Assembly (NCBI RefSeq): GCF_900187945.1
Contig: NZ_FYEH01000020.1
Coordinates: 1 to 60,521 of the forward strand
DNA length: 60,521 nt
Reading direction: 5' to 3'
From: Arboricoccus pini
GTDB lineage: Bacteria; Pseudomonadota; Alphaproteobacteria; Geminicoccales; Geminicoccaceae
Positions 27,754-60,521 of this stretch are shown in pieces. The translations under genes were made by a program, and so were the position numbers. The notes beneath the pieces were generated by a model. The model saw nothing but the letters and a program-made list of their open reading frames with translations. It was not told the origin of the DNA and searched no databases. Every line of letters starts with the position of its first letter. The stretch's first letter is position 1.

Positions 27754-30639
27754 TCAATCGGCCGCGTCGGCATAATCCGCAACGGGCGGGCAGGAACAGG
27801 CGAGATTGCGGTCGCCGTAGGCATTGTCGACACGGGCGACCGGCGGCCAGTATTTGTCGATGCCGACGAAGGGTAGGGGGAAAAAGGCCTCTTCTTTGGA
27901 GTAGGGACGTTCCCAGCTCCCGAGAAGAAGGTCCGCCCGGTGTGGTGCGTGCTTTAGAAGATTGTTGGCGCGATCGACCCTGCCCTCCTCGATGGCGCGA
28001 ATTTCCGCCCGGATCTGGATCATGGCGGCTATGAAGCGTTCAAGCTCTGACCGGTCCTCCGATTCGGTGGGCTCCACCATCATCGTGTCCGGCACCGGCC
28101 AGGACATGGTGGGGGCGTGGAAGCCATAATCAACCAGCCGCTTGGCTACGTCCTCGGCCGTGATCCCGGCGCTCTGCTTCAGCTGCCTGAGATCGATGAT
28201 GCATTCATGCGCGACCAATCCACCCTGGCCCTTGTAGACAATGGGATAGTGGGGCGCCAGGCGGGCCGCCACGTAGTTGGCGTTCAAGATCGCCACCCTG
28301 GTGGCCTCGGTCAGACCCTCAGCGCCCATCATGGCGATGTAGGCCCAGGTGATGGGCAGGATGGAGGCGCTGCCGAAGGGCGCGGCCGAGACGGTGCCAA
28401 CCTCGCTTTTGGCCGCCGGATTGACGCCTGCCACGACCGGGTGTGTCGGCAGGAAGGGCGCCAGATGGGCGGCCACGCCGATCGGCCCCATGCCCGGGCC
28501 GCCGCCGCCATGCGGAATGCAGAAGGTCTTGTGCAGGTTCATGTGCGAGACGTCGGCGCCGATCTCGCCCGGGCGGGCCAGGCCCACCAGGGCGTTGAGG
28601 TTGGCGCCGTCCATGTAGACTTGGCCGCCCGCGGCGTGGACCAGCTCGCAGATTTCCTTGATCCGCGCCTCGAAGACGCCATGCGTCGAGGGATAGGTGA
28701 TCATGAGGGCCGCCAGCGCCGGCCCATGCCGGGCCAGCTTGGCCTCCAGGTCCACGAGGTCGACATTGCCGGCCGCATCGCAGTCGACGACGACGACCTC
28801 CATGCCCGCCATGACCGCCGAGGCTGGGTTCGTGCCGTGCGCCGAGGCGGGGATGAGGCAGATCCGGCGATGCGCCTCGCCCCGGCTCTCATGCCAGGCG
28901 CGGATGACGAGCAGGCCCGCATATTCGCCCTGGCTGCCGGCGTTGGGCTGCAGGGAGACAGCGGCAAAGCCCGTGATCTCGGCCAGCCAGGCTTCGAGAT
29001 CGTCGTACAGCCGACGATAGCCCTTCTGCTGCTCCTTGGGCGCGAAGGGGTGGATGGCGGCAAAGCCCGGATCGGAGACCGGCATCATTTCGGCCGCAGC
29101 GTTCAGCTTCATGGTGCAGGAGCCCAGCGGAATCATCGAGCGGTCAAGAGCTATGTCCTTGCCCTGGAGGCGGCGGAGATAGCGCATGAGCTCGGTCTCG
29201 CTCCGGCAGCCGTGGAAGACCGGATGTTCGAGATAGGTGCTTGTGCGCTGGAGGGCCGGGGGGATTCCCTCGGGTGCCTTCGCGTCCAGGATGCGGGTGT
29301 CGGCGTCCGCCAAGCCCAGCGCCGACAGGAGTCCCTGGAGCTGGGCCGGTGTCGTCGTCTCATCCAGGCTGATGCCGAAGCGGTCGGCATCGACCGGGCG
29401 AAGATTGAAGCCCTTGGCCTCGGCATCGGCGACGAGCCCCGCGGCCCGGCCCGGTGCCAGGACGGTCAGCGTGTCGAAGAAGGTGTCGTTCTCAAGCTTG
29501 AGGCCCGACTGGACGAGGCCGGCCGCCAGGGCGCCGGTCAGGCGGTTCACGCGGCTGGCGATCCGCTTTAGGCCTTCGGGCCCGTGCCAGACGGCGTACA
29601 TGCCGGCAATGACCGCCAGCAGCACCTGCGCCGTACAGATATTGGAGGTGGCCTTCTCGCGGCGGATATGCTGCTCGCGGGTCTGCAGCGCCATGCGCAA
29701 GGCGGGCTTGCCCTGGGCATCGACCGAGACACCGATCAGTCGGCCGGGCATGGCGCGCTTATAGGCATCGCGGACGGCGAAGAAGGCGGCGTGCGGGCCG
29801 CCGGCCCCCATGGGCACGCCAAAGCGCTGGGCCGAGCCCAGGACGATGTCGGCCCCGAGCTCGCCCGGTGGCGTCAGGAGCGTCAGTGCCAGAAGGTCGC
29901 TGGCCACTGCGACCAGGGCACCTTCCTTGTGCAGCGCCTCGATGGCCGGCGTCGGGTCGACAAGGGCGCCGCTCGAGCCCGGATAGGAAAGAAGCGCGCC
30001 AAAGCAGCGCATCCGGCCGATGTCGCTGGCCGCTGCCGTAACGATCTCGATGCCCAGGGGACGTGCCCGGGTGCGAAGGACGGCCAGGGTCTGGGGATGC
30101 GTGTCGGCATCGACCACGAAGACATCGCTCTTGGCCTTGGCCTGGCGGCGGATCATTGTCATGGCCTCGGCCGCCGCCGTGCCTTCATCCAGCAGCGAGG
30201 CGTTGGCCAACGCCATGCCGGTCAGGTCGGCCACCATCTGCTGCCAGTTGAGCAGCGCTTCCAGCCGCCCCTGGCTGACCTCGGCCTGATAGGGCGTATA
30301 GGCCGTGTACCAGCCCGGATTCTCAAAGAGGTTGCGTAGGATGACGGGCGGCGTGAACGTGTCGTAATAGCCCATGCCGATCATCGAGACGCGGCGCTCG
30401 TTCTGCGCGGCGATGTCGCGAAGTGCCGCCAGGGCCTCCTGCTCGGAAAGCGCGGGCGGCAAGGCCAGCGGCCGCGTGGTGCGAATGGCAGCCGGCACCG
30501 CGTTGTCGATCAGAGCGGCCAGCGAGGGCTGGCCCAGTTCCTTGAGCATCGCCGCCTTGTCGGCCGGACGCGGCCCGATATGACGGCCCTGGAATTCGCC
30601 GGCCGGCAGGAGGGATGAAAGGGTCTGGCGCGTGGGCAT
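27754..30639 (-). CDS. gcvP: Glycine dehydrogenase (decarboxylating), P-protein
   Basis: PLP-dependent subunit of the glycine cleavage complex: decarboxylates glycine and passes the aminomethyl group to the lipoyl arm of GcvH. At 961 aa it is the full-length, single-chain form, not the split gcvPA/gcvPB type. The N-terminal half begins with [20 protein letters not shown]. The PLP lysine lies in [20 protein letters not shown]. It is the last gene of gcvT-gcvH-gcvP, 42 bases after gcvH, and is presumably controlled by the glycine riboswitch ahead of gcvT. Confidence 0.97.
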
Positions 30640-30681
30640 GGAGGCGGTCTCGACCTGGACGGCTTGGGGATGAGGAGCGGA

Positions 30682-31053
30682 TCAGAGCGAGGCCACGAAA
30701 GCGTCGTAGGCTTCCTTGTCCATGAGCTCGCCGAGCTCGCTCTGGTCGGTAAGGGTGAGTTTGAAGAACCAGGCCTCCCCCTCGGCATCCTCGTTGACGA
30801 GCGATGGTGTGGCTTCGAGGGCGGAATTGGCCTGGATGACCGTGCCGGAGACCGCGGCATAGACATCGGAGGCCGCCTTCACGCTCTCGACCACGGCTGC
30901 CTCCTTGCCCTTGGTCAGCACCTTGCCGGCCTCGGGCAGCTCGACGAAGACGACATCGCCCAGTTGGCCTTGTGCATGGTCGGTGATGCCGACGGTGGCC
31001 ACGTCGCCATCGACCTCGACCCATTCGTGATCCTTGGAATAGTAGCGTGTCAT
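30682..31053 (-). CDS. gcvH: Glycine cleavage system H protein
   Basis: 123-aa lipoyl carrier that shuttles the aminomethyl intermediate between GcvP, GcvT and the lipoamide dehydrogenase. The lipoylation motif [15 protein letters not shown] places the modified Lys at 59. The N-terminus ([25 protein letters not shown]) is diagnostic. The same frame is open well upstream into gcvT, but the ATG at 31053 lies eight bases after the gcvT stop and gives the normal length. Confidence 0.97.
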
Positions 31054-31061
31054 GAGCGACC

Positions 31062-32174
31062 TCAGCGGTGGTAGCGATGGGGGACGAAGGGAAGGGCGAC
31101 GATCTCGGCCGGCAGTGAGCGACCCCGGACGTCGAGCTGGATCTCGGTGCCGATCTCGGCGGCGTTCGTCACCACATAGCCAAGGGCCACGGGCGCGCCG
31201 ACGCTGGGGCCATAGCCGCCGCTGGTCACCTTGCCGATCGGGGCCCCGGTGACACTCTGGATCTCGGTACCGGCCCTGGCCGGCGCGCGGCCGGTCGGGC
31301 GGACACCGACGAGCTTGCGCTCCGTGCCCTCCCTGAGCTGGCGCAGAATGACCTCGTGGCCGGCAAAGCCGCCTTCCTCGCGGCGCCGCTTGCCGATCGT
31401 CCAGGCGAGATCCGCCTCGATCGGCGTGCGGGTGGCATCGATATCGTTGCCATAGAGGCAAAGTCCGGCTTCCAGCCTCAGCGAATCGCGCGCCCCCAGG
31501 CCCGCTGCCTCCACCTCCGGTGCTGCAAGGAGCAAGCGGGCAAGGTCCGTGGCCTGCTCGGCCGCCAAGGAGATCTCGAAGCCGTCCTCGCCGGTATAAC
31601 CCAGGCGAGAGACCCGGGCCTCGATCATGCCCAGCTTGAGATCGCAGCCCTCCATGAAGCGTAGCTGCATGACGCGCGGATTGAGGCGGGCCAGAACCTG
31701 TGCCGCCAGTGGCCCCTGCAGGGCCAGGAGAGCGCGGTCGGCGAGCGCCTCGACCTCGCAGGTCGTGCCAAGCTCGGCCTTGATGTGGGCAAGGTCGGCA
31801 GCTCCGGTCGCGGCATTGGCGACGATATAGAGATGATCCTCGGCATTGGTGACGATCAGATCGTCGAGAATGCCGCCCGCGTCATTGGTCAAGAGCGTGT
31901 AGCGGGCGCGATTGGGGGCCAGGTCCTTGATGTTGCCGGGCACCAGGCGCTCGAGGCCGAGCGCGGCATCGGGGCCGGCGACCTTGATCTGCACCATGTG
32001 CGAGACGTCGAAGAGGGCGGCCCCGGAGCGGCACTGCAGGTGCTCGGCCATGATGCCTGCCTGGTACTGGATCGGCATCTCGTAGCCGGCGAAGGTGACG
32101 AATTTCGCCCCCAGCTCCCGATGCAGCTCAAAGAGCGGTGTCCGCCGGGCCGTTGCCGATTCCTGCTCGCTCAC
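31062..32174 (-). CDS. gcvT: Aminomethyltransferase (glycine cleavage T protein)
   Basis: T-protein: moves the methylene group from GcvH to tetrahydrofolate, releasing ammonia. It is 370 aa from the chosen GTG. Motifs include [29 protein letters not shown] and the C-terminal [20 protein letters not shown] prefer GTG 32174 because GCGAGGAG is then six bases upstream; the ATG two codons earlier sits directly on that site, and a further upstream ATG would add an Arg-rich leader. It heads the gcvT-gcvH-gcvP operon behind a tandem glycine riboswitch. Confidence 0.95.
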
Positions 32175-32250
32175 GATCATCTCCTCGCCGCGCGCCAGGC
32201 GGCGCGCGTCCATGCATGCTCGAGGTGGCTGCTCTCGCCGCGCACCTTCG

Positions 32251-49336: not shown

Positions 49337-49533
49337 CACCCTTAAGATATTGCGGACCACCCGAACGCCTGTTTCTGGGCGGCCTTTGTCTTGGCACGTT
49401 CCTGCCCACGAGCAAGAAGATGGTGGGAGGCCGACATGCCGGCTGCACGGCGCGAAGGGGCGAAGGGAGGCACAGAAAGGCTGCCTCGTCGCTGGTCGTC
49501 GCACATCATCCGGCCGGGCCAGGTGGCCTGACG

Positions 49534-50463
49534 ATGCCGCGCACCACGACGCTCGGCCGGCCGGTTATCCTGGGTATCGTCGGCGATAGCGCTGCCGGCA
49601 AGACGACGCTCACGAGCGGCATCGCCCAGATCCTGGGGCCGGCCAGAGTGGCCACGATCTGCACCGACGATTACCACGCCTTCGATCGTAGGGAGCGGGC
49701 CGAGAACGGCCTCTCCGCCCTGGATCCGCGCTGCAACCATATGGATATCCTGGAACAGCATTTAAGGCTGCTGCGCCAGGGCCAGCCGATCTTGAAGCCC
49801 GTCTACAACCATGAGCGCGGCACGCTCGACCGACCGGACTACATTGCGCCCAAGCCTTACATCATTGTCGAGGGGCTGCTCGGCTACGCCACGCGGGCGA
49901 TGCGCGATTGCTATGACGTCAAGGTCTTCCTCGATCCCGATCCCAAGCTCCGCATCCGCTGGAAGGTGAAGCGGGACACGGAGCGGCGCGGCTATACCCG
50001 CGACGAGGTGATGTGGGCGCTCGACAAGAGGCGCTTCGACAGCCCCACGCATATCGAGCCGCAGCGCACCTTCGCCGACATCATCATCAATTTCTTTCCG
50101 CCGCTGGAGCAGATGGAGGAATCAGGCGCGCATTTGAACGTGCGCCACATCCTGCGTCCGACGCTGCCGCACCCCGATCTCACGCCCATTCTCGGGATGA
50201 GTGCGCAGTCCGGGCTGCATCTGGAACTCTCGCGCGACACTGACGGCAAGCCCGTCGATGTCCTGGAGATAGCGGGCACGATTCCCGAACGCCGGGCCTT
50301 GAAGGTGGAAGATTTGCTCTGGGCGCTCATCCCCGAGGCCAGCCAGATGCGGGCCCGGCTGGGTGCCTATGACGGGCCGGCGATGAGCCATCCCTTGGCC
50401 CTGACGCAGTTGTTCATCGCCTATCACATGCTCATGGCCGCAGAGGGCATCCACGCGGTCTGA
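49534..50463 (+). CDS. prk: Phosphoribulokinase of a non-class-I type
   Basis: Makes ribulose-1,5-bisphosphate from ribulose-5-phosphate and ATP for RuBisCO. 309 aa, with P-loop IVGDSAAGKTTL (residues 15-26), CTDDYHAFDRRERAENGLSA and KPVYNHERGTLD, then PYIIVEGLLGY. This pattern resembles cyanobacterial/actinobacterial PRK. It differs from the usual proteobacterial class I enzyme, which has a GSSGAGT P-loop and IEGDAFHRF. The frame is open 38 codons upstream, but those are Arg/His-rich and the core begins at MPRTTTLGRPVILG. It is the first gene of the cbb operon. Confidence 0.9.
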   Translation: MPRTTTLGRPVILGIVGDSAAGKTTLTSGIAQILGPARVATICTDDYHAFDRRERAENGLSALDPRCNHMDILEQHLRLLRQGQPILKPVYNHERGTLDRPDYIAPKPYIIVEGLLGYATRAMRDCYDVKVFLDPDPKLRIRWKVKRDTERRGYTRDEVMWALDKRRFDSPTHIEPQRTFADIIINFFPPLEQMEESGAHLNVRHILRPTLPHPDLTPILGMSAQSGLHLELSRDTDGKPVDVLEIAGTIPERRALKVEDLLWALIPEASQMRARLGAYDGPAMSHPLALTQLFIAYHMLMAAEGIHAV

Positions 50464-50577
50464 GCAAGCATCGTGCCTCGTCACGACCGTCCCTGCGAAA
50501 AGGGCCGGCCGCCGTACCGGCCAAGGGGTCGACCGGCCGTCGAGACAGCCACCAAGAGCTAAAAGGGAGCAGCTTAC

Positions 50578-51660
50578 ATGGCCCTGATCAGCCTTCGTCA
50601 ATTGCTGGATCACGCCGCTGAGGAAACCTACGGCGTGCCGGCCTTCAACATCAACAACATGGAGCAGCTGGTCGCCATCATGCGGGCGGCACAGCGGACC
50701 AACGCCCCCGTCATCCTCCAGGCCAGTCGGGGGGCTCGGTCCTATGCGGGTGACGTCATGCTCAAGCGCATGGTGCAGGCCGCCGTCGAGACCTGGAGCG
50801 AGATCCCGATCTGCCTGCATCAGGATCATGGCAACGAGCCGGGGACCTGCCTTTCGGCCATCCAGTTCGGCTTTACCTCGGTGATGATGGACGGCTCGCT
50901 CGAGGCGGACATGAAGACCCCCGCCACCTACGACTATAATGTCAACGTCACGAGCGAGGTCACCCGCCTGGCGCATGCGGTGGGCGTCTCGGTCGAGGGC
51001 GAGCTCGGCTGCCTGGGCTCGCTCGAGACCGGCATGGGCGAGGCCGAGGACGGCGTCGGCGCCGAGGGCAGGCTCGAGCGCGACCAGTTGCTCACCGACC
51101 CGGACCAGGCCCTCGATTTCGTCACGCGCACCAAGGTCGACGCGCTGGCCGTTGCCATCGGCACCAGCCACGGCGCCTACAAGTTCACGCAAAAGCCGAC
51201 CGGCGACACGCTTGCCATGGACGTCGTCAAGGCGATCCACGAGCGACTCCCCTCGACACATCTCGTCATGCACGGCTCCTCGAGCGTGCCGCAGGAGCTC
51301 CAGGCGCTCTTCAACGAGTTTGGTGGCGAGATGCCCCAGACCTGGGGCGTGCCGGTCGAGGAAATCCAGGTCGGCATCAAGCACGGTGTCCGCAAGATCA
51401 ACATCGACACCGACTGCCGCCTCGCCATGGCCGCGCATTTCCGCAAGGTCGCCTTCGAGAAGAAGGCCGAGTTCGATCCGAGGAACTTCCTCAAGCCCGC
51501 CATGGCCGAGCTCGACAGGCTTTGCGCCCGGCGCTTCGAGGAGTTCGGCGCGGCCGGCAACGCCGCGAAGATCAAGCCTGTCCCGCTCGCGGAGATGGCG
51601 ATCCGCTATCGAAGCGGCTCTCTCGATCCGGCGACCAGCGCGTCGGCGCTCGCGGCCTGA
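50578..51660 (+). CDS. cbbA: Fructose-bisphosphate aldolase class II, Calvin-cycle subtype
   Basis: Zinc aldolase that condenses GAP with DHAP (and erythrose-4-P with DHAP) in the regenerative part of the Calvin cycle. The 360-aa protein starts [24 protein letters not shown], typical of the cbbA/fba subtype. The zinc site is visible in [10 protein letters not shown], with [17 protein letters not shown] and MHGSSSVPQ. The ATG has AAAGGGAG about eight bases upstream. It lies between prk (114-base gap) and cbbL (48-base gap) on the same strand. Confidence 0.96.
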
Positions 51661-51705
51661 CCCGCCAACATTCTCCCAATGACGCCCTCATCTGAAGGAA
51701 GCTGA

Positions 51706-53169
<1,464 letters not shown>

Positions 53170-53243
53170 CCCTGCCAGAAACAGCCGGGCCGCATGCGCT
53201 CCGCTGTCACCAGACCGGCGGGGCCGCAAGCGCCCCTTTATTT

Positions 53244-53265
53244 CCAGAAAGGACGGCCTTTCTGG
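53244..53265 (+). promoter_or_regulatory. Hairpin in the cbbL-cbbS intergenic region
   Basis: A perfect 9-bp stem, CCAGAAAGG with CCTTTCTGG, and ACGG loop, in the 128-base gap between cbbL and cbbS. It lies 32 bases before the cbbS ATG. It may be an mRNA processing or stability element that balances large and small subunit production. No T-tract, so not a plain terminator. Confidence 0.55.
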
Positions 53266-53297
53266 ACCGCGCACTGCCAAGATGAGGACTTGATCCG

Positions 53298-53714
53298 ATG
53301 CCCATGACGCAGGGGACGTTCAGCTTTCTACCCGATCTGACCGACGAGCAGATCCGCGCGCAGGTGAAATACTGCTTCGACAATGGCTGGGCCGTGAACA
53401 TCGAGTACACCGACGATCCGCATCCCAGGAACACCTATTGGGAGATGTGGGATCTGCCGATGTTCGATTTGGCCGATCCGGCCGGTGTCATCACCGAGCT
53501 CGAGGCCTGCAAGAAGGTGTTTCCCAATCATTATATCCGCATCTCCGCCTTCGATTCGACGGCCGGTTGGGAATCTTTGCGCATCTCCTTCATCGTCAAT
53601 CGCCCGAAGGAGGAGCCTGGCTACCACCTCGAGCGCAATGAGACGCACGGGCGGACAGTACAGTACACCCTGCGCCCGTACGCGACTCAGAAGCCGGCGG
53701 GCCAGCGCTACTGA
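53298..53714 (+). CDS. cbbS: RuBisCO small subunit (red type)
   Basis: 138-aa small subunit that caps the L8 core to form L8S8. It begins TQGTFSFLPDLTDEQIRAQV and contains NTYWEMWDLPMFD, ACKKVFPNHYIRISAFD and a C-terminal extension (YHLERNETHGRTVQYTLRPYATQKPAGQRY region), the beta-hairpin typical of red-type small subunits. It follows cbbL by 128 bases and precedes cbbX. Confidence 0.98.
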   Translation: MPMTQGTFSFLPDLTDEQIRAQVKYCFDNGWAVNIEYTDDPHPRNTYWEMWDLPMFDLADPAGVITELEACKKVFPNHYIRISAFDSTAGWESLRISFIVNRPKEEPGYHLERNETHGRTVQYTLRPYATQKPAGQRY

Positions 53715-53801
53715 GCCTTGGGGCGACACGCGAGGGGGAGGGCGGCCGGGGGGCGCCCTCCGCCGTCGTTTTGGGCTGGAAACGACAAGGGAGGACAGGT
53801 C

Positions 53802-54818
53802 ATGGCCTTCTCGATGCATGCACCGGTACAGGCGCGTCCCGAGGAGCGGCGGCAGGCGCTGGACGATATCGACCTGCCCGAGGGCGAGCTGCCCGGGAGC
53901 CTGGCCGAGATTTATGAAAAGAGCGGCATCCCCGAGGTCTTTGCCAGGCTCGATCGCGACCTTATCGGCCTGGCACCCGTCAAGGGCCGGGTGCGCGAGA
54001 TCGCCTCCTTGCTCATCGTCGACAAGGTCCGCCGCCAACTGGGCCTGACGGCGGAGCCGCCGACGCTCCATATGTCCTTCACGGGCAATCCGGGGACGGG
54101 CAAGACGACGGTTGCCATGCGCATGGCGCAGATCCTCCACCAGCTGGGCTATATCCGTACGGACCGGCTGGTTGCCGTCACCAGGGACGACATGGTGGGC
54201 CAGTATATCGGCCACACGGCGCCCAAGACGAAGGAGATCTTGAAACGGGCCATGGGTGGCGTGCTCTTCATCGACGAGGCCTATTATCTGTTCCGGCCGG
54301 AGAACGAGCGCGACTATGGGGCCGAGGCCATCGAGATCCTTTTGCAGATCATGGAGAATCAAAGGGACGACCTGGTCGTGGTCGTGGCCGGTTATGCCGA
54401 CAAGATGGCGAAGTTCTTCACAGCCAATCCCGGCTTTCGCTCGCGCGTCGCCCACCATATCGATTTCCCCGACTATGGCGCCGCGGAGCTGCTCGAGATC
54501 GGCGAATTGATGCTGGCCCGGCAGAATTATCGCTTCGACGCCAAAGCGAGGGCGGCCTTCGCCGATTATGTGAAGATCCGCATGAATCAGCCGCACTTCG
54601 CCAATGCCCGCTCGATTCGCAACGCGCTGGACAGAGCGCGCATGCGTCAGGCGATTCGGCTCTTCCAGGAGAAGGACAAACCCTTGACCAAGGAGAGCTT
54701 GACCACGATCCAGGAAGGCGAGATCAGACAGAGTCGCGTTTTTAGGGGCGGTATCGAGGGATGGCCGGAAGGCGTGCCCGACGCTCAGGGGGCGGGCCAG
54801 CCCGGCATGGAGAAATAG
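53802..54818 (+). CDS. cbbX: Red-type RuBisCO activase CbbX
   Basis: AAA+ remodelling ATPase that pulls on the large-subunit C-terminus of red-type RuBisCO to release tight-binding sugar phosphates. 338 aa from the ATG with GGGAGGACAGG just upstream. Walker A is GNPGTGKTT (95-103), Walker [12 protein letters not shown] (154-164), and the sensor/arginine-finger region is [20 protein letters not shown]. An upstream GTG in frame (53718) is unlikely, as the extra 28 residues are low complexity. Confidence 0.97.
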
Positions 54819-54821
54819 AGC

Positions 54822-55496
54822 ATGAGCATCGACAAGAAGAAGGTTCTGATCGCGCCCTCCATCCTGGCGTCCGATTTCGCACAACTCGGCACCGAGGTGG
54901 CGAACGTGGCCGACGCGGGGGCGGATTGGATCCATCTGGACGTGATGGACGGTCATTTCGTGCCCAACATCACCTTTGGTCCGGATGCGGTGAAGGCCGT
55001 TCGCGGGTCGACGACCAAGCTTTTCGACTGCCACCTCATGATCAGCCCGGCCGATCCCTATCTCGAGGCCTTTGCCAAGGCAGGGGCGGATCTCATCACC
55101 GTCCATGCCGAGGCCGGGCCGCATCTGGATCGCTCGCTCCAGGCAATCCGGGCGCTGGGCAAGAAATGCGGCGTGGCACTCAATCCAAGCACGCCCGAGA
55201 GCGTGCTCGAATATGTCCTGGATAAGCTGGATCTCATCTTGGTGATGACCGTCAACCCCGGCTTCGGCGGGCAGAAATTCATTCACAGCCAGATCGAGAA
55301 GGTCCGCCGCGTCAAGGCGATGGTCGGCGGCCGGCCCATCCGTATCGAGGTCGATGGCGGCATCGATGCCGAGACAGCGCCGCTCGTCGTCCGCGCCGGC
55401 GCGGACGTGCTGGTCGCGGGCTCGGCGATCTTCAAGCGGCCGCCCTACGAGGATGCCATTCGCGCCATCCGCGAGAGTCTCCTCGTGCGCGCTTAA
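54822..55496 (+). CDS. rpe: Ribulose-phosphate 3-epimerase
   Basis: Interconverts D-ribulose-5-P and D-xylulose-5-P (also called CbbE in cbb operons), linking transketolase products to PRK. The 224-aa TIM-barrel protein has [13 protein letters not shown], the metal site [26 protein letters not shown]-type ([14 protein letters not shown]) and EVDGGID. It begins three bases after cbbX stops, so it is part of the operon and its last gene. Confidence 0.97.
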
Positions 55497-56129: not shown

Positions 56130-56873
56130 TCACGACCGCAGGTCGCAGCCGAGGAAACGTCGCTCCACGCGATGGCAGGCCTCCAGCACGCTGAAACTGC
56201 CGGCCGCCGGGTCCAGGACGACGTCGCCTTCGTTGGTGAGACAGGCGATCAGCCTCGCCTGCAATGCGATGGGCTTGGCATGGGTGAACCCCGGGGGGGC
56301 TGCTTCCTCGACGACGTCGGGGATGTCGTGCGCCCGCCAGACGCCCTTGGCGCGGAGCGGCGCCTTTTGCAGCACCAGGAGATATTCGCTGATCCGCCGC
56401 GTGCGATAGCCCATGCCGAGCTTCTTCTTCTTCCAGACGATCAGATCGACGCTCGATAAAGCCGTGCCGGCCAGCCAAGACTGCACGCCCATGCAAAGGT
56501 GGAACTTGTCGACCCAGAGCAACAGATGGCCCGAGGGCATCAGCACTCGGTCGATCTCGCCGAGGAAAGACTGGATCTCGGCCTCGTCCATCTGCCTGAG
56601 CATCGCCCGCTGCCGCTGCCGGCTGCCTTCATTGCCGTATTTCTGGCGGTCCATGACGCCACGATATTGCGGATCGAAGATGCAAAGGGGCATGCTGCCG
56701 TCCGCGAGGCTGGCCAGCAATTGGCGTCCATCGCCGACGGTCGCCTCGTCGAGCGGAAAGCGGGCGTCGGGCGCGAAGACCGGCTGGCGCAGCCGCCGGT
56801 CGCGCCCGTACACGGAGCCCCTGGAGGAGCTTGCCTCGCCATCACCCGCAAGGCGCGTCAATCGAGTGGCCAT
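56130..56873 (-). CDS. Solitary DNA methyltransferase (beta-type, DPQY motif)
   Basis: 247 aa from ATG 56873. Motif IV is FDPQYRGV (DPQY at 67-70; canonical DPPY) and motif I is [27 protein letters not shown] near the C-terminus. This order (IV before I) is that of beta-class adenine-N6 or cytosine-N4 methyltransferases. No restriction endonuclease gene is nearby. The frame begins at a TTG (56948) overlapping the stop of the fae homologue (TTGA), so translation could instead be coupled to that gene. The recognition site cannot be predicted. Confidence 0.75.
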
Positions 56874-56944
56874 GAAAGACGGCTTCCCCCGCTGCTCTTT
56901 GCCATCACCGGCCGTCACGCCCGCCAGGGCGGGACCCCATGGGC

Positions 56945-57484
56945 TCAATACTCGACGACATCCTCAAGAGCATAATGCTTGACCGACTTGCGGTTGGCGA
57001 TCAACTCGTCGATCGAGGGTTCGCCCCGCATCGCGCGACCGATCGCCAGCTTGGTCGCATCGTAGTTCGAGCGATAAAGCTCCTTCTTGTCGACCTCGGT
57101 CGTCTCCTCGCCGCAGGAGGGATCGAGCCAGACCATGACGATCATGCAGAGCGTCTCGGTCTCGTCCTTGGGAATGACCCCCTCGATCACCGAATCCAAA
57201 ATTGCATCGCCGATCGCCGCCTGCACGACGCCGCCCAGAAACTCGACGTAACGGGCGGAGCGGATTGTGGCCTTCGTCGTCATCATTGCCGCCGGCTTGA
57301 CCAACTGATTGCAGTCGCGGACGACAAACATCCGCGTATGACCCTCGACCTGCCCCATCATCGAGGCGAAGGCCTGGCCGACCGGACCCTTGACCGAGCC
57401 GATCAGCACTTCGGGCATGGCGATCGTGGCCTCACTGTTGGAAAAATCCGTGGCCTCGCCAACCTTGAACCAGATATCGCTCAT
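56945..57484 (-). CDS. Formaldehyde-activating enzyme (Fae) homologue
   Basis: 179 aa. Similarity to Fae, which condenses formaldehyde with tetrahydromethanopterin, runs the full length: [51 protein letters not shown] and [18 protein letters not shown]. Where classical Fae has 'AHIDLIIG' with the catalytic His, this protein has AMPEVLIG: His is replaced by Met23 and the Asp by Glu25. It may be a Fae paralogue (Fae2/Fae3 type) with changed function. The ATG has GGAGGAG seven bases upstream. No other H4MPT-pathway gene is in the window. Confidence 0.82.
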
Positions 57485-57718: not shown

Positions 57719-58633
57719 GTGGACATCTACCTGCCGATCGCCGAGGTGTCCCTCAACCTCTTCCTTCTCCTCCTGATCGGCAGCGGCGTGGGCTTCCTTT
57801 CAGGCGTGTTCGGCGTCGGCGGCGGATTCCTGATGACCCCGCTCCTGATCTTCATAGGCGTCCCGCCAGCCGTGGCCGTCGGCACCGGTGCCGTGCAGGT
57901 CACGGCCTCTTCGGTCTCGGGCGCCCTTGCCCATCTGCGACGCGGCACGGTCGATCTCAGGATGGGCAGCATCCTCGTCGTCGGCGGCATCGTCGGCTCG
58001 GCCCTGGGCATCCTAGTCTTTCGCTGGCTTCGAAGCGTCGGCCAGATCGACACCGTCATCAGCCTCTCCTACGTCTTTCTCCTGGGCTCCGTCGGCCTCC
58101 TGATGTTCGTCGAAGCGTTGAATGCCATGCTGCGCACTCGCCGCCGGTCCGGCACCGGCGCCAGGCGACTCCACCAGCATTACTGGCTCCATCGCCTGCC
58201 ACTCAAGATGCGCTTCCCCCATTCGCGCCTCTACATCTCGATGATCACCCCCTTTGTGATCGGTGCCGCCATCGGCATCCTCAACGCCGTCATGGGCATC
58301 GGCGGCGGTTTCATCCTCATCCCCGCCATGATCTACCTGATCGGCATGCCGACGAGCGTCGTTGTCGGCACCTCGCTCTTCCAACTCTGCTTCGTCTCGG
58401 CGATCACCGGCCTCCTCCAGGCAGCCACCAACGCCACGGTGGACATCGTCCTCGCCATGCTTCTGATCGCCGGCGGCGTGCTCGGCGCCCAGTTGGGCAG
58501 CCGGGCCGGCGCCTATCTGCGCGGCGACCACCTGCGCATCCTCCTGGCGCTGATCGTCCTCCTCGTCGGCGGCCGCCTCGCCTGGGATCTCGTCGCGACC
58601 CCGTCCGATCCCTTCTATTTGACCCACGCCTGA
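57719..58633 (+). CDS. TauE/SafE family sulfite exporter / permease
   Basis: 304-aa inner-membrane protein with about eight helices in two DUF81 repeats: GSGVGFLSGVFGVGGGFLMTPLLIFIGVPPAVAVGTG and IGAAIGILNAVMGIGGGFILIPAMIYLIGMPTSVVVGTS. These 'GxFGxGGGF' loops are the family signature. The family exports sulfite, sulfoacetate or related organosulfur anions; the substrate here is unknown. The GTG start has GGGAG seven bases upstream. It is divergent from the fae homologue across a 234-base gap. Confidence 0.92.
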   Translation: MDIYLPIAEVSLNLFLLLLIGSGVGFLSGVFGVGGGFLMTPLLIFIGVPPAVAVGTGAVQVTASSVSGALAHLRRGTVDLRMGSILVVGGIVGSALGILVFRWLRSVGQIDTVISLSYVFLLGSVGLLMFVEALNAMLRTRRRSGTGARRLHQHYWLHRLPLKMRFPHSRLYISMITPFVIGAAIGILNAVMGIGGGFILIPAMIYLIGMPTSVVVGTSLFQLCFVSAITGLLQAATNATVDIVLAMLLIAGGVLGAQLGSRAGAYLRGDHLRILLALIVLLVGGRLAWDLVATPSDPFYLTHA

Positions 58634-60025: not shown

Positions 60026-60108
60026 CACTTCACCTCGACCGTAAACATCAGCCCGCGATTAAACCCAGCCCCGCGATAACCGCAACGGATCGGAGAGGCC
60101 TCCGGCGG

Positions 60109-60129
60109 CCAGGGGCTACCAGCCCCTGG
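60109..60129 (-). terminator. Hairpin downstream of the right repeat-family gene
   Basis: Nine-bp stem with GGT loop. Compared with the left copy (483-503), stem positions 8 and 9 have changed in both partners (G-C to C-G, C-G to T-A), so pairing is preserved. Confidence 0.55.
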
Positions 60130-60188
60130 ACCTGGGTTGGAGTGGGGTTGTCGGTCGCGGGTGAGGATCGAGTCTTACCCGGCCACCA

Positions 60189-60521
60189 TCACGAGGGCGG
60201 GCCGGTCCCATAGCGGCCGATCTTCCTCGCACCCTGCAAGCGTATCGCCGCCTGCATGCTCTCGGCCGGCCGTTCGTGCCAGTACCGCGCCACACCTCGC
60301 GCCACCGCCTCAAGGCGCAACGCCGGCAGCGCGCTGGGCCCAAGGCCCGTACCCATCCGCTCGGCCTCGGACGCCAGCTTGTCCGCCAGCCGGTTCAGCT
60401 CAGCCCGGTTGTCCCGCGCCACCCGGCGCAGATCGGCCAGGGCCAGCGCTTCCGCCTCCTCCTGGTGCTCGGGTATCGCCGCGCAATGGCTCCAGTCGCC
60501 CGGCGGCTGGCGCGGTTCGGC
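60189..60521 (-). CDS. Repeat-family hypothetical protein, second copy (5' end beyond window)
   Basis: C-terminal 110 codons of a protein nearly identical to the one at 8-424; the frame runs open off the window edge. Only three residues differ from the first copy (Gly/Glu, Arg/His, Ser/Ala), while at least seven codons differ silently. Same stop position and downstream hairpin. It lies next to the speB-like gene on the same strand. Function unknown. Confidence 0.6.
   Translation of the reverse strand, partial: AEPRQPPGDWSHCAAIPEHQEEAEALALADLRRVARDNRAELNRLADKLASEAERMGTGLGPSALPALRLEAVARGVARYWHERPAESMQAAIRLQGARKIGRYGTGPPS

Follow-up and report, generated by a model that had tools for sequence, protein, structure and literature searches.

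A Fae2-type homologue of formaldehyde-activating enzyme in Arboricoccus pini has methionine at the position of the catalytic histidine

Main finding

A homologue of formaldehyde-activating enzyme (Fae) encoded by Arboricoccus pini has methionine where canonical Fae has its catalytic histidine, and is almost certainly a Fae2-type paralogue. It is best explained, with a probability of about one half, as a pterin-binding accessory of the tetrahydromethanopterin (H4MPT) formaldehyde-oxidation pathway that does not carry out normal Fae catalysis. The gene lies in the window, the whole stretch of 60,521 nt that was analysed, which makes up the whole of contig C28. The genome has 4.07 Mb, is 99% complete and holds three Fae genes. 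Fae paralogues of this kind are already known; the informative part is that the loss of the histidine is common to a whole branch.

The gene and its product

The reading frame is intact from its ATG (57484) to its stop codon (56945), and the sequence directly 5′ of the ATG, GGGAGGAGACGGTG, is a good ribosome-binding sequence. The product matches the Pfam family Fae (PF08714) at 4.4e-54 and 183.2 bits (cut-off 27), covering positions 1–157 of the 159 in the profile. The end-to-end alignment with Fae given in a preliminary description of this DNA holds. It also scores 125.8 bits with the NCBIfam model TIGR03126, above the cut-off of 118.05. The model of the Fae-Hps fusion (NF009833) gives 106.6 bits against a cut-off of 274 and is matched only at positions 2–159 of 392; the protein has no C-terminal hexulose-phosphate synthase domain and does not belong to that family.

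Two distinct solved chains match the window protein by sequence. One is M. extorquens Fae (1y5y, 1y60); the other, named Avd, has a second part that aligns like Fae and was taken as a fusion with M. extorquens Fae. The AlphaFold model of the window protein is poor (mean pLDDT 66.1, and under 50 at residues 46–72), and a fold search with it gave 1y60 and 1y5y as the sole matches at E up to 0.001. Viral contigs, scanned once, yielded 52 pattern matches and no relative.

Table 1. Features of the window discussed in the text.
Feature	Coordinates	Strand	Basis or remark
179-aa Fae-family protein of the Fae2-type (AMPE), with Met23 where canonical Fae has the catalytic His	56945..57484	-	profile match, alignment, tree
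TauE/SafE family membrane protein, divergently transcribed	57719..58633	+	PF01925, 4.4e-49
N6/N4 DNA methylase-like ORF, just downstream of fae	56130..56948	-	start codon uncertain
Calvin-cycle cluster: phosphoribulokinase, class II FBP aldolase, RuBisCO large chain, CbbX-like AAA protein, ribulose-phosphate 3-epimerase	49420..55496	+	
Glycine cleavage genes gcvP, gcvH, gcvT	27754..32213	-	gcvP (27754–30639) and folate-dependent gcvT (31062–32213) by Pfam; gcvH frame between them recognised by eye
Inverted repeat at the contig ends, 421 bp	98–517 and 60095–60515		95% identity

The missing histidine is a property of the subfamily

In canonical Fae the histidine of the AHIDLIIG segment is said, after work by Acharya et al. 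in 2005, to be the acid/base catalyst. When the window protein is aligned with 1y5y and 1y60 by phmmer, this histidine (in VAHIDLIIG) falls opposite Met23 of IAMPEVLIG. The preliminary description had read the same exchange from the AHIDLIIG and AMPEVLIG segments, and both the alignment and the subfamily rows agree with it.

The residues A22-M23-P24-E25 are found in 81 of 81 rows, made up of the window protein and the best 80 of 105 relatives, which are 67–74% identical to it and belong for the most part to Methylobacterium, Xanthobacter, Ancylobacter and Aurantimonadaceae. A larger subfamily set, in which identical proteins were collapsed and further loci added to the earlier relatives, has Met23 in all of its 87 distinct Fae2-type rows. 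Across these rows 51 of 179 positions are invariant; Glu25, His49, Lys71, Thr73, Gln88 and His170 also do not vary. The combination of A-M-P-E at 22–25, H49 and W-[LI]-D at 119–121 is complete in the window protein and in the 87 subfamily rows. Eleven loci from a phylum-wide sample, two or more of which belong to genomes counted above, all have Met23 and agree too at Lys71, Thr73, Gln88, His49 and His170; one of the 11 has R119. Met23 is fixed across the Fae2-type subfamily and is therefore no sequencing error. Asp24, Leu53, Lys71, Thr73 and Gln88 (M. extorquens numbers) are the residues that we take to touch the pterin in Fae.

The position of the catalytic histidine is occupied by Glu in the Fae3-type proteins, both in the 10 of 10 rows that reach it (an 11th is truncated) and in 6 of 6 loci of the phylum sample, and His49 is present in 11 of 11 rows. 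Among the rows then scored as canonical, the catalytic histidine was present in 44 of 44 and Phe, Val or Ile stood at position 49 in 43, the sole other row being L108, which is of the AHIN type. His49 is not put forward as a displaced catalytic histidine: in 6 of 7 AHIN-type rows both it and the original histidine are present, and its placement in the model is unreliable, as it lies in the stretch with pLDDT under 50 (residues 46–72).

The window copy has eight substitutions at positions that are invariant in the best 80 of 105 relatives, any one of which has 0–2. Four of the eight are at 13–21, just before the AMPE motif, and five are at positions that also vary among seven more distant Fae2-type rows. 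The count of eight overstates the oddness of this copy, which is the lone row of its order; a function shifted relative to that of other Fae2-types is possible.

Phylogeny

Alignment A1 took in 43 of 81 rows, and trees were reconstructed from 67 and from 57 of the rows then at hand, with the truncated L096 in neither. In the 57-row tree the Fae2-type (AMPE) and Fae3-type (AEPE) groups are each supported at 99/98, the canonical (AHID) group at 98/96 and the AHIN group at 81/86, and the Fae2- and Fae3-types are joined at 100/99. The earlier 67-row tree shows the same three main groups (Fae2-type, 94/96; Fae3-type, 97/95; canonical with L108, 100/98). The window protein is placed in the Fae2-type clade, apart from canonical Fae; its branch, next to those of other alphaproteobacterial Fae2-types, is rather long (0.31 and 0.29). 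That it is a Fae2/Fae3-type paralogue, one of the options in the preliminary description, is thus backed by the tree as well as by the residues and by the canonical fae and mch genes of the same genome.

Because canonical Fae and the AHIN group both retain the histidine, the simplest reading is a single loss before the Fae2- and Fae3-types parted; the root of the tree was not inferred, and a gain is formally allowed.

The host genome and the surroundings of the gene

Contig C7 of the A. pini genome carries a canonical fae (C7:67184–67657) near mch (C7:69555–70490), along with matches to fhc genes from annotated plasmids and a gene for a PQQ alcohol dehydrogenase that scores above the curated cut-off; a second such dehydrogenase is on C9. 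The third Fae copy, on contig C15, is of the Fae3-type. The canonical and Fae2-type proteins of this genome are 32% identical. Among 31 genomes of the order, Fae2- and Fae3-type genes occur only in this one; seven others have one Fae match each, at 33–37% identity, and the two of these that were read are canonical.

As described previously, the Fae2-type gene is divergent from a TauE/SafE gene, and 234 bp separate the two starts. The end of the Calvin-cycle cluster is 2.0 kb from the start of the Fae2-type gene. Together with the methanol-dehydrogenase-like and H4MPT genes elsewhere in the genome, this cluster suggests an autotrophic methylotroph; its proximity to the Fae2-type gene is context only. 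When 11 neighbour proteins were searched by tblastn at 1e-10 against 91 Fae2 loci (mostly ~4 kb on each side), there were 0 matches. On the evidence of these flanks, a functional link between Fae2 and its neighbours in the window (Calvin cycle, TauE/SafE, methylase, response regulator and others) was rejected. The Fae homologue had been called the only C1-carrier gene in the window, which is wrong given the glycine cleavage genes listed in Table 1. Since the inverted repeat is common to both ends, it is probably a repeated gene in which the contig terminates.

Companionship with canonical Fae and mch

A class sample of 385 genomes gave a Fae match of any kind in 23 and a Fae2-type match (60% or more) in 4; for a phylum sample of 398 genomes the corresponding numbers were 22 and 13 (54% or more). 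Every Fae2-positive genome of the phylum sample (13 of 13) carries mch, together with a match that falls in the canonical band (32–35% identity, a band set by identity, with residues read only at fetched loci). Within this sample, mch was found in 18 of the 42 genomes tested for it, namely these 13 and five of five with a canonical-band match and no Fae2; it was found in none of 20 genomes drawn from the 376 that lack a Fae match, and in none of the 4 that have an AHIN-type match alone. A further test covered the genomes of 50 of the best 80 relatives, chosen for diversity, and 11 class genomes, and overlaps with the phylum sample. All 50 genomes of relatives have mch; 48 of them contain a complete canonical-scoring Fae, and in the other 2 it is broken up at contig ends. 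The sole Fae2-positive genome that departs from this is G366 (83% complete), where Fae2 and canonical Fae are present and mch was not found. The co-occurrence speaks for a common way of life no less than for a common pathway.

Fae3-type genes are present in G038 and G171, in which canonical Fae and mch were not found. Among 16 genomes of the G038 family that are at least 80% complete, a canonical-scoring Fae and mch are both present in 13 and both absent in 3. A Fae3-type protein working without the H4MPT pathway was not adopted for G038 and G171; the assemblies are incomplete, and the absences were tentatively put down to missing contigs.

Gene neighbourhoods of Fae2- and Fae3-type loci

The 91 Fae2 loci were compared by tblastn, with fetched flanks of mostly ~4 kb on each side. 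At three of them fhc genes are present and Fae2 is the gene directly after them. Two are on plasmids, pAZKH of Azoarcus sp. KH32C and pTB101 of Aquabacterium olei, where Fae2 follows four formylmethanofuran-dehydrogenase/fhc genes. The third is in an alphaproteobacterial genome (G101), where the linkage was found by tblastn; here fhcB is matched only weakly (33% over 208 aa), and the putative fhcC frame gave no hit to a Pfam family. These three linkages may represent two events, as the Fae2 proteins of the two betaproteobacterial cases are closely related in the 57-row tree and those cases may be one.

On a plasmid of Azospirillum oryzae, Fae2 is near chemoreceptor, glycine-betaine transport and ring-hydroxylating oxygenase genes; the chemoreceptor gene is immediately upstream, and a canonical fae-mch cluster lies ~21 kb away. 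The annotated records of two Phyllobacterium zundukense plasmids, Thiodictyon and Caballeronia show no C1 gene beside Fae2. At 28 of the 91 loci metH is within the fetched stretch (26 Methylobacterium contigs, an M. aquaticum plasmid and the A. pini genome itself). In the Methylobacterium loci (e.g., L172:2288-7668) metH and a conserved 176-aa protein without a Pfam family are upstream of the Fae2-type gene. This protein was found at 40 of the 91 loci, and the loci with it and with metH are nearly all from Methylobacterium. Within the limited flanks, the 91 loci have no regulator as a constant neighbour.

On a plasmid of Methylobacterium sp. DM1, a Fae3-type gene follows glutamate-synthase-like and glnT genes, which resemble the methylglutamate operon.

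Published mutants and phylogeny

M. aquaticum 22A is reported to have fae1 and fae2, the latter being Maq22A_1p31155 (PMC7356819, PMC10613068). On pMaq22A_1p there is a single Fae place at E up to 1e-5, which is of the AMPEVLIG type, and the plasmid record lists no gene there. Since this is the sole Fae place on the plasmid, we infer that fae2 of strain 22A belongs to the Fae2-type (AMPE) subfamily. According to PMC7356819, the fae2 deletion lowers the growth rate on methanol and the yield on methanol plus succinate, the fae1 deletion abolishes growth on methanol, and in a mxaF deletion background with La3+ the fae2 deletion mutant grew like its parent.

Other published mutants concern genes that may or may not belong to the AMPE or AEPE subfamilies. 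In M. universalis FAM5, deletions of fae2 and of fae3 are reported to cause no growth defect, and fae3 to be up 11.74-fold on methylamine (PMC5023235); this fae3 may be of the same type as the DM1 copy. For M. alcaliphilum 20ZR, PMC11748545 likewise describes no growth defect on deletion of fae1-2 or of fae3, and no relief of the methanol sensitivity of an AM1 fae1 deletion by M. alcaliphilum fae3.

A 2024 phylogeny recognises Fae-like groups 2–4, with functions given in its section 20 as ‘not known’ (PMC11748545); these groups probably include the Fae2-type (AMPE) subfamily. The words ‘histidine’, ‘active site’ and ‘residue’ are absent from its main text. Among the matches listed in a literature search, the titles and beginnings of abstracts include no paper stating that Fae2 or Fae3 lacks the histidine, which does not establish its absence from print.

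Interpretation

Family membership and the retained Lys71, Thr73 and Gln88 suggest that the Fae2-type protein most likely still binds H4MPT or one of its C1 derivatives in the former Fae cleft; as the histidine has been lost, it would not catalyse the normal condensation. It would work alongside canonical Fae and the Fhc complex as an accessory of H4MPT-dependent formaldehyde oxidation, perhaps by holding or handing on C1-H4MPT, by slowly loading or unloading it, or by modulating Fae1. A role in this pathway is most likely in view of the companionship with canonical Fae and mch, the few fhc linkages and the mild mutant phenotype of the presumed orthologue in M. aquaticum.

Four other explanations are taken up in descending order of probability. 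The first, which we consider unlikely, is a regulatory subunit or pseudoenzyme that assembles with canonical Fae and tunes or stabilises it, binding no substrate of its own. Canonical Fae is a homo-oligomer, the fold has been retained while the catalytic histidine has gone, and no genome of the phylum sample has Fae2 without a canonical-like Fae (13 of 13). However, the invariance of E25, K71, T73 and Q88 in the presumed cleft goes beyond what a mere partner would need, and mixed rings are not expected by default because Fae1 and Fae2 of A. pini are so dissimilar (32% identity).

An enzyme for another carrier is still less likely. The carrier would above all be tetrahydrofolate (H4F), and the protein would either condense formaldehyde with it or transfer C1 units between H4F and H4MPT. 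The metH genes at 28 of the 91 loci and the glycine cleavage genes in the window would suit such a role, but linkage to metH seems to be restricted to a single genus, and ~25 kb separate the gcv genes from the Fae2-type gene. Fae2 also tracks mch, a gene of the H4MPT pathway, although folate is, to our knowledge, nearly universal. Another carrier had been suggested in the preliminary description too, and is not supported by the occurrence of mch in 13 of 13 and 50 of 50 Fae2 genomes or by the fhc genes before Fae2 at 3 of 91 loci. Tetrahydrofolate has been proposed in print for Fae homologues (PMC11748545), as has a sensor of formaldehyde or C1-H4MPT acting on gene expression or taxis (PMC3728764; PMC11748545, section 20). 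For the sensor, which the preliminary description also raised, there is little positive evidence and we regard it as quite improbable: the chemoreceptor gene immediately upstream of Fae2 in Azospirillum oryzae fits, but no regulator is a constant neighbour within the limited flanks compared.

An ordinary Fae isoenzyme in which the histidine is dispensable and His49 or Glu25 stands in for it is very improbable. In its favour, Fae2- and Fae3-types always have His49 at a position held by Phe, Val or Ile in canonical Fae, and Glu25 replaces a conserved Asp. Against it, AHIN-type rows (6 of 7) have His49 with the original histidine, so that it is not simply a substitute, and M. alcaliphilum fae3, which may be of another subfamily, is reported to have left the AM1 fae1 deletion methanol-sensitive (PMC11748545).

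The pterin-binding accessory may be part of a wider picture, which is speculative and which we would not bet on. The Fae2- and Fae3-types together would form one histidine-less clade of C1-pterin-binding carriers or hand-over proteins for C1-H4MPT, and would not be formaldehyde-activating enzymes; Fae2 would act towards Fhc in the pathway, and Fae3 on the methylamine side. That the histidine is missing from two subfamilies which nevertheless stay with the H4MPT pathway, in some genomes after fhc genes, sharpens the question to whether Fae2 binds C1-H4MPT and acts at Fhc.

Database names and the AHIN group

Four of six Fae2-type proteins, including the window copy, pass the cut-off of TIGR03126 and two fail; 0 of 2 Fae3-type proteins and 2 of 2 AHIN-type proteins pass. 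This equivalog model cuts across the histidine-less clade and does not separate the subfamilies, and database names for the clade may be inconsistent. By naming part of the clade ‘formaldehyde-activating enzyme’, the curated model implies an activity that is only presumed.

The AHIN group (L190, L192, L193, L195, L203; L108, L202) consists of outlying Fae-like genes that keep the catalytic histidine; Glu, Gln or Val replaces Thr73 and Asn replaces His170. In five of five tested genomes that have an AHIN-type gene as their sole Fae, mch is absent, and the group is apparently a Fae fold without the H4MPT pathway. On a Streptomyces clavuligerus plasmid (L202:3968-4540) the AHIN-type gene and the end of a gene for a glycine betaine transporter overlap, as if the Fae-like product handled formaldehyde from betaine demethylation.

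Comparison with known Fae proteins

The canonical Fae of M. extorquens (PDB 1y5y/1y60) belongs to the same family as the window protein, aligns with it from end to end and is its best fold match. The changes from canonical Fae to the Fae2-type are His to Met and Asp to Glu in the active-site segment, Phe or Val to His at position 49, and FIH to WLD at 119–121, whereas Lys71, Thr73 and Gln88 are kept in both. The Fae3-type proteins (the C15 copy of A. pini and that of the Methylobacterium sp. DM1 plasmid) have also lost the histidine, with Glu in its place (AEPE instead of AMPE); they are 37–42% identical to the window protein, and Pro24, Glu25 and His49 are common to both types. Fae2 of M. aquaticum 22A, whose locus tag is presumed to be that of the single Fae place on its plasmid, shares 68% identity and the AMPEVLIG motif with the window protein.
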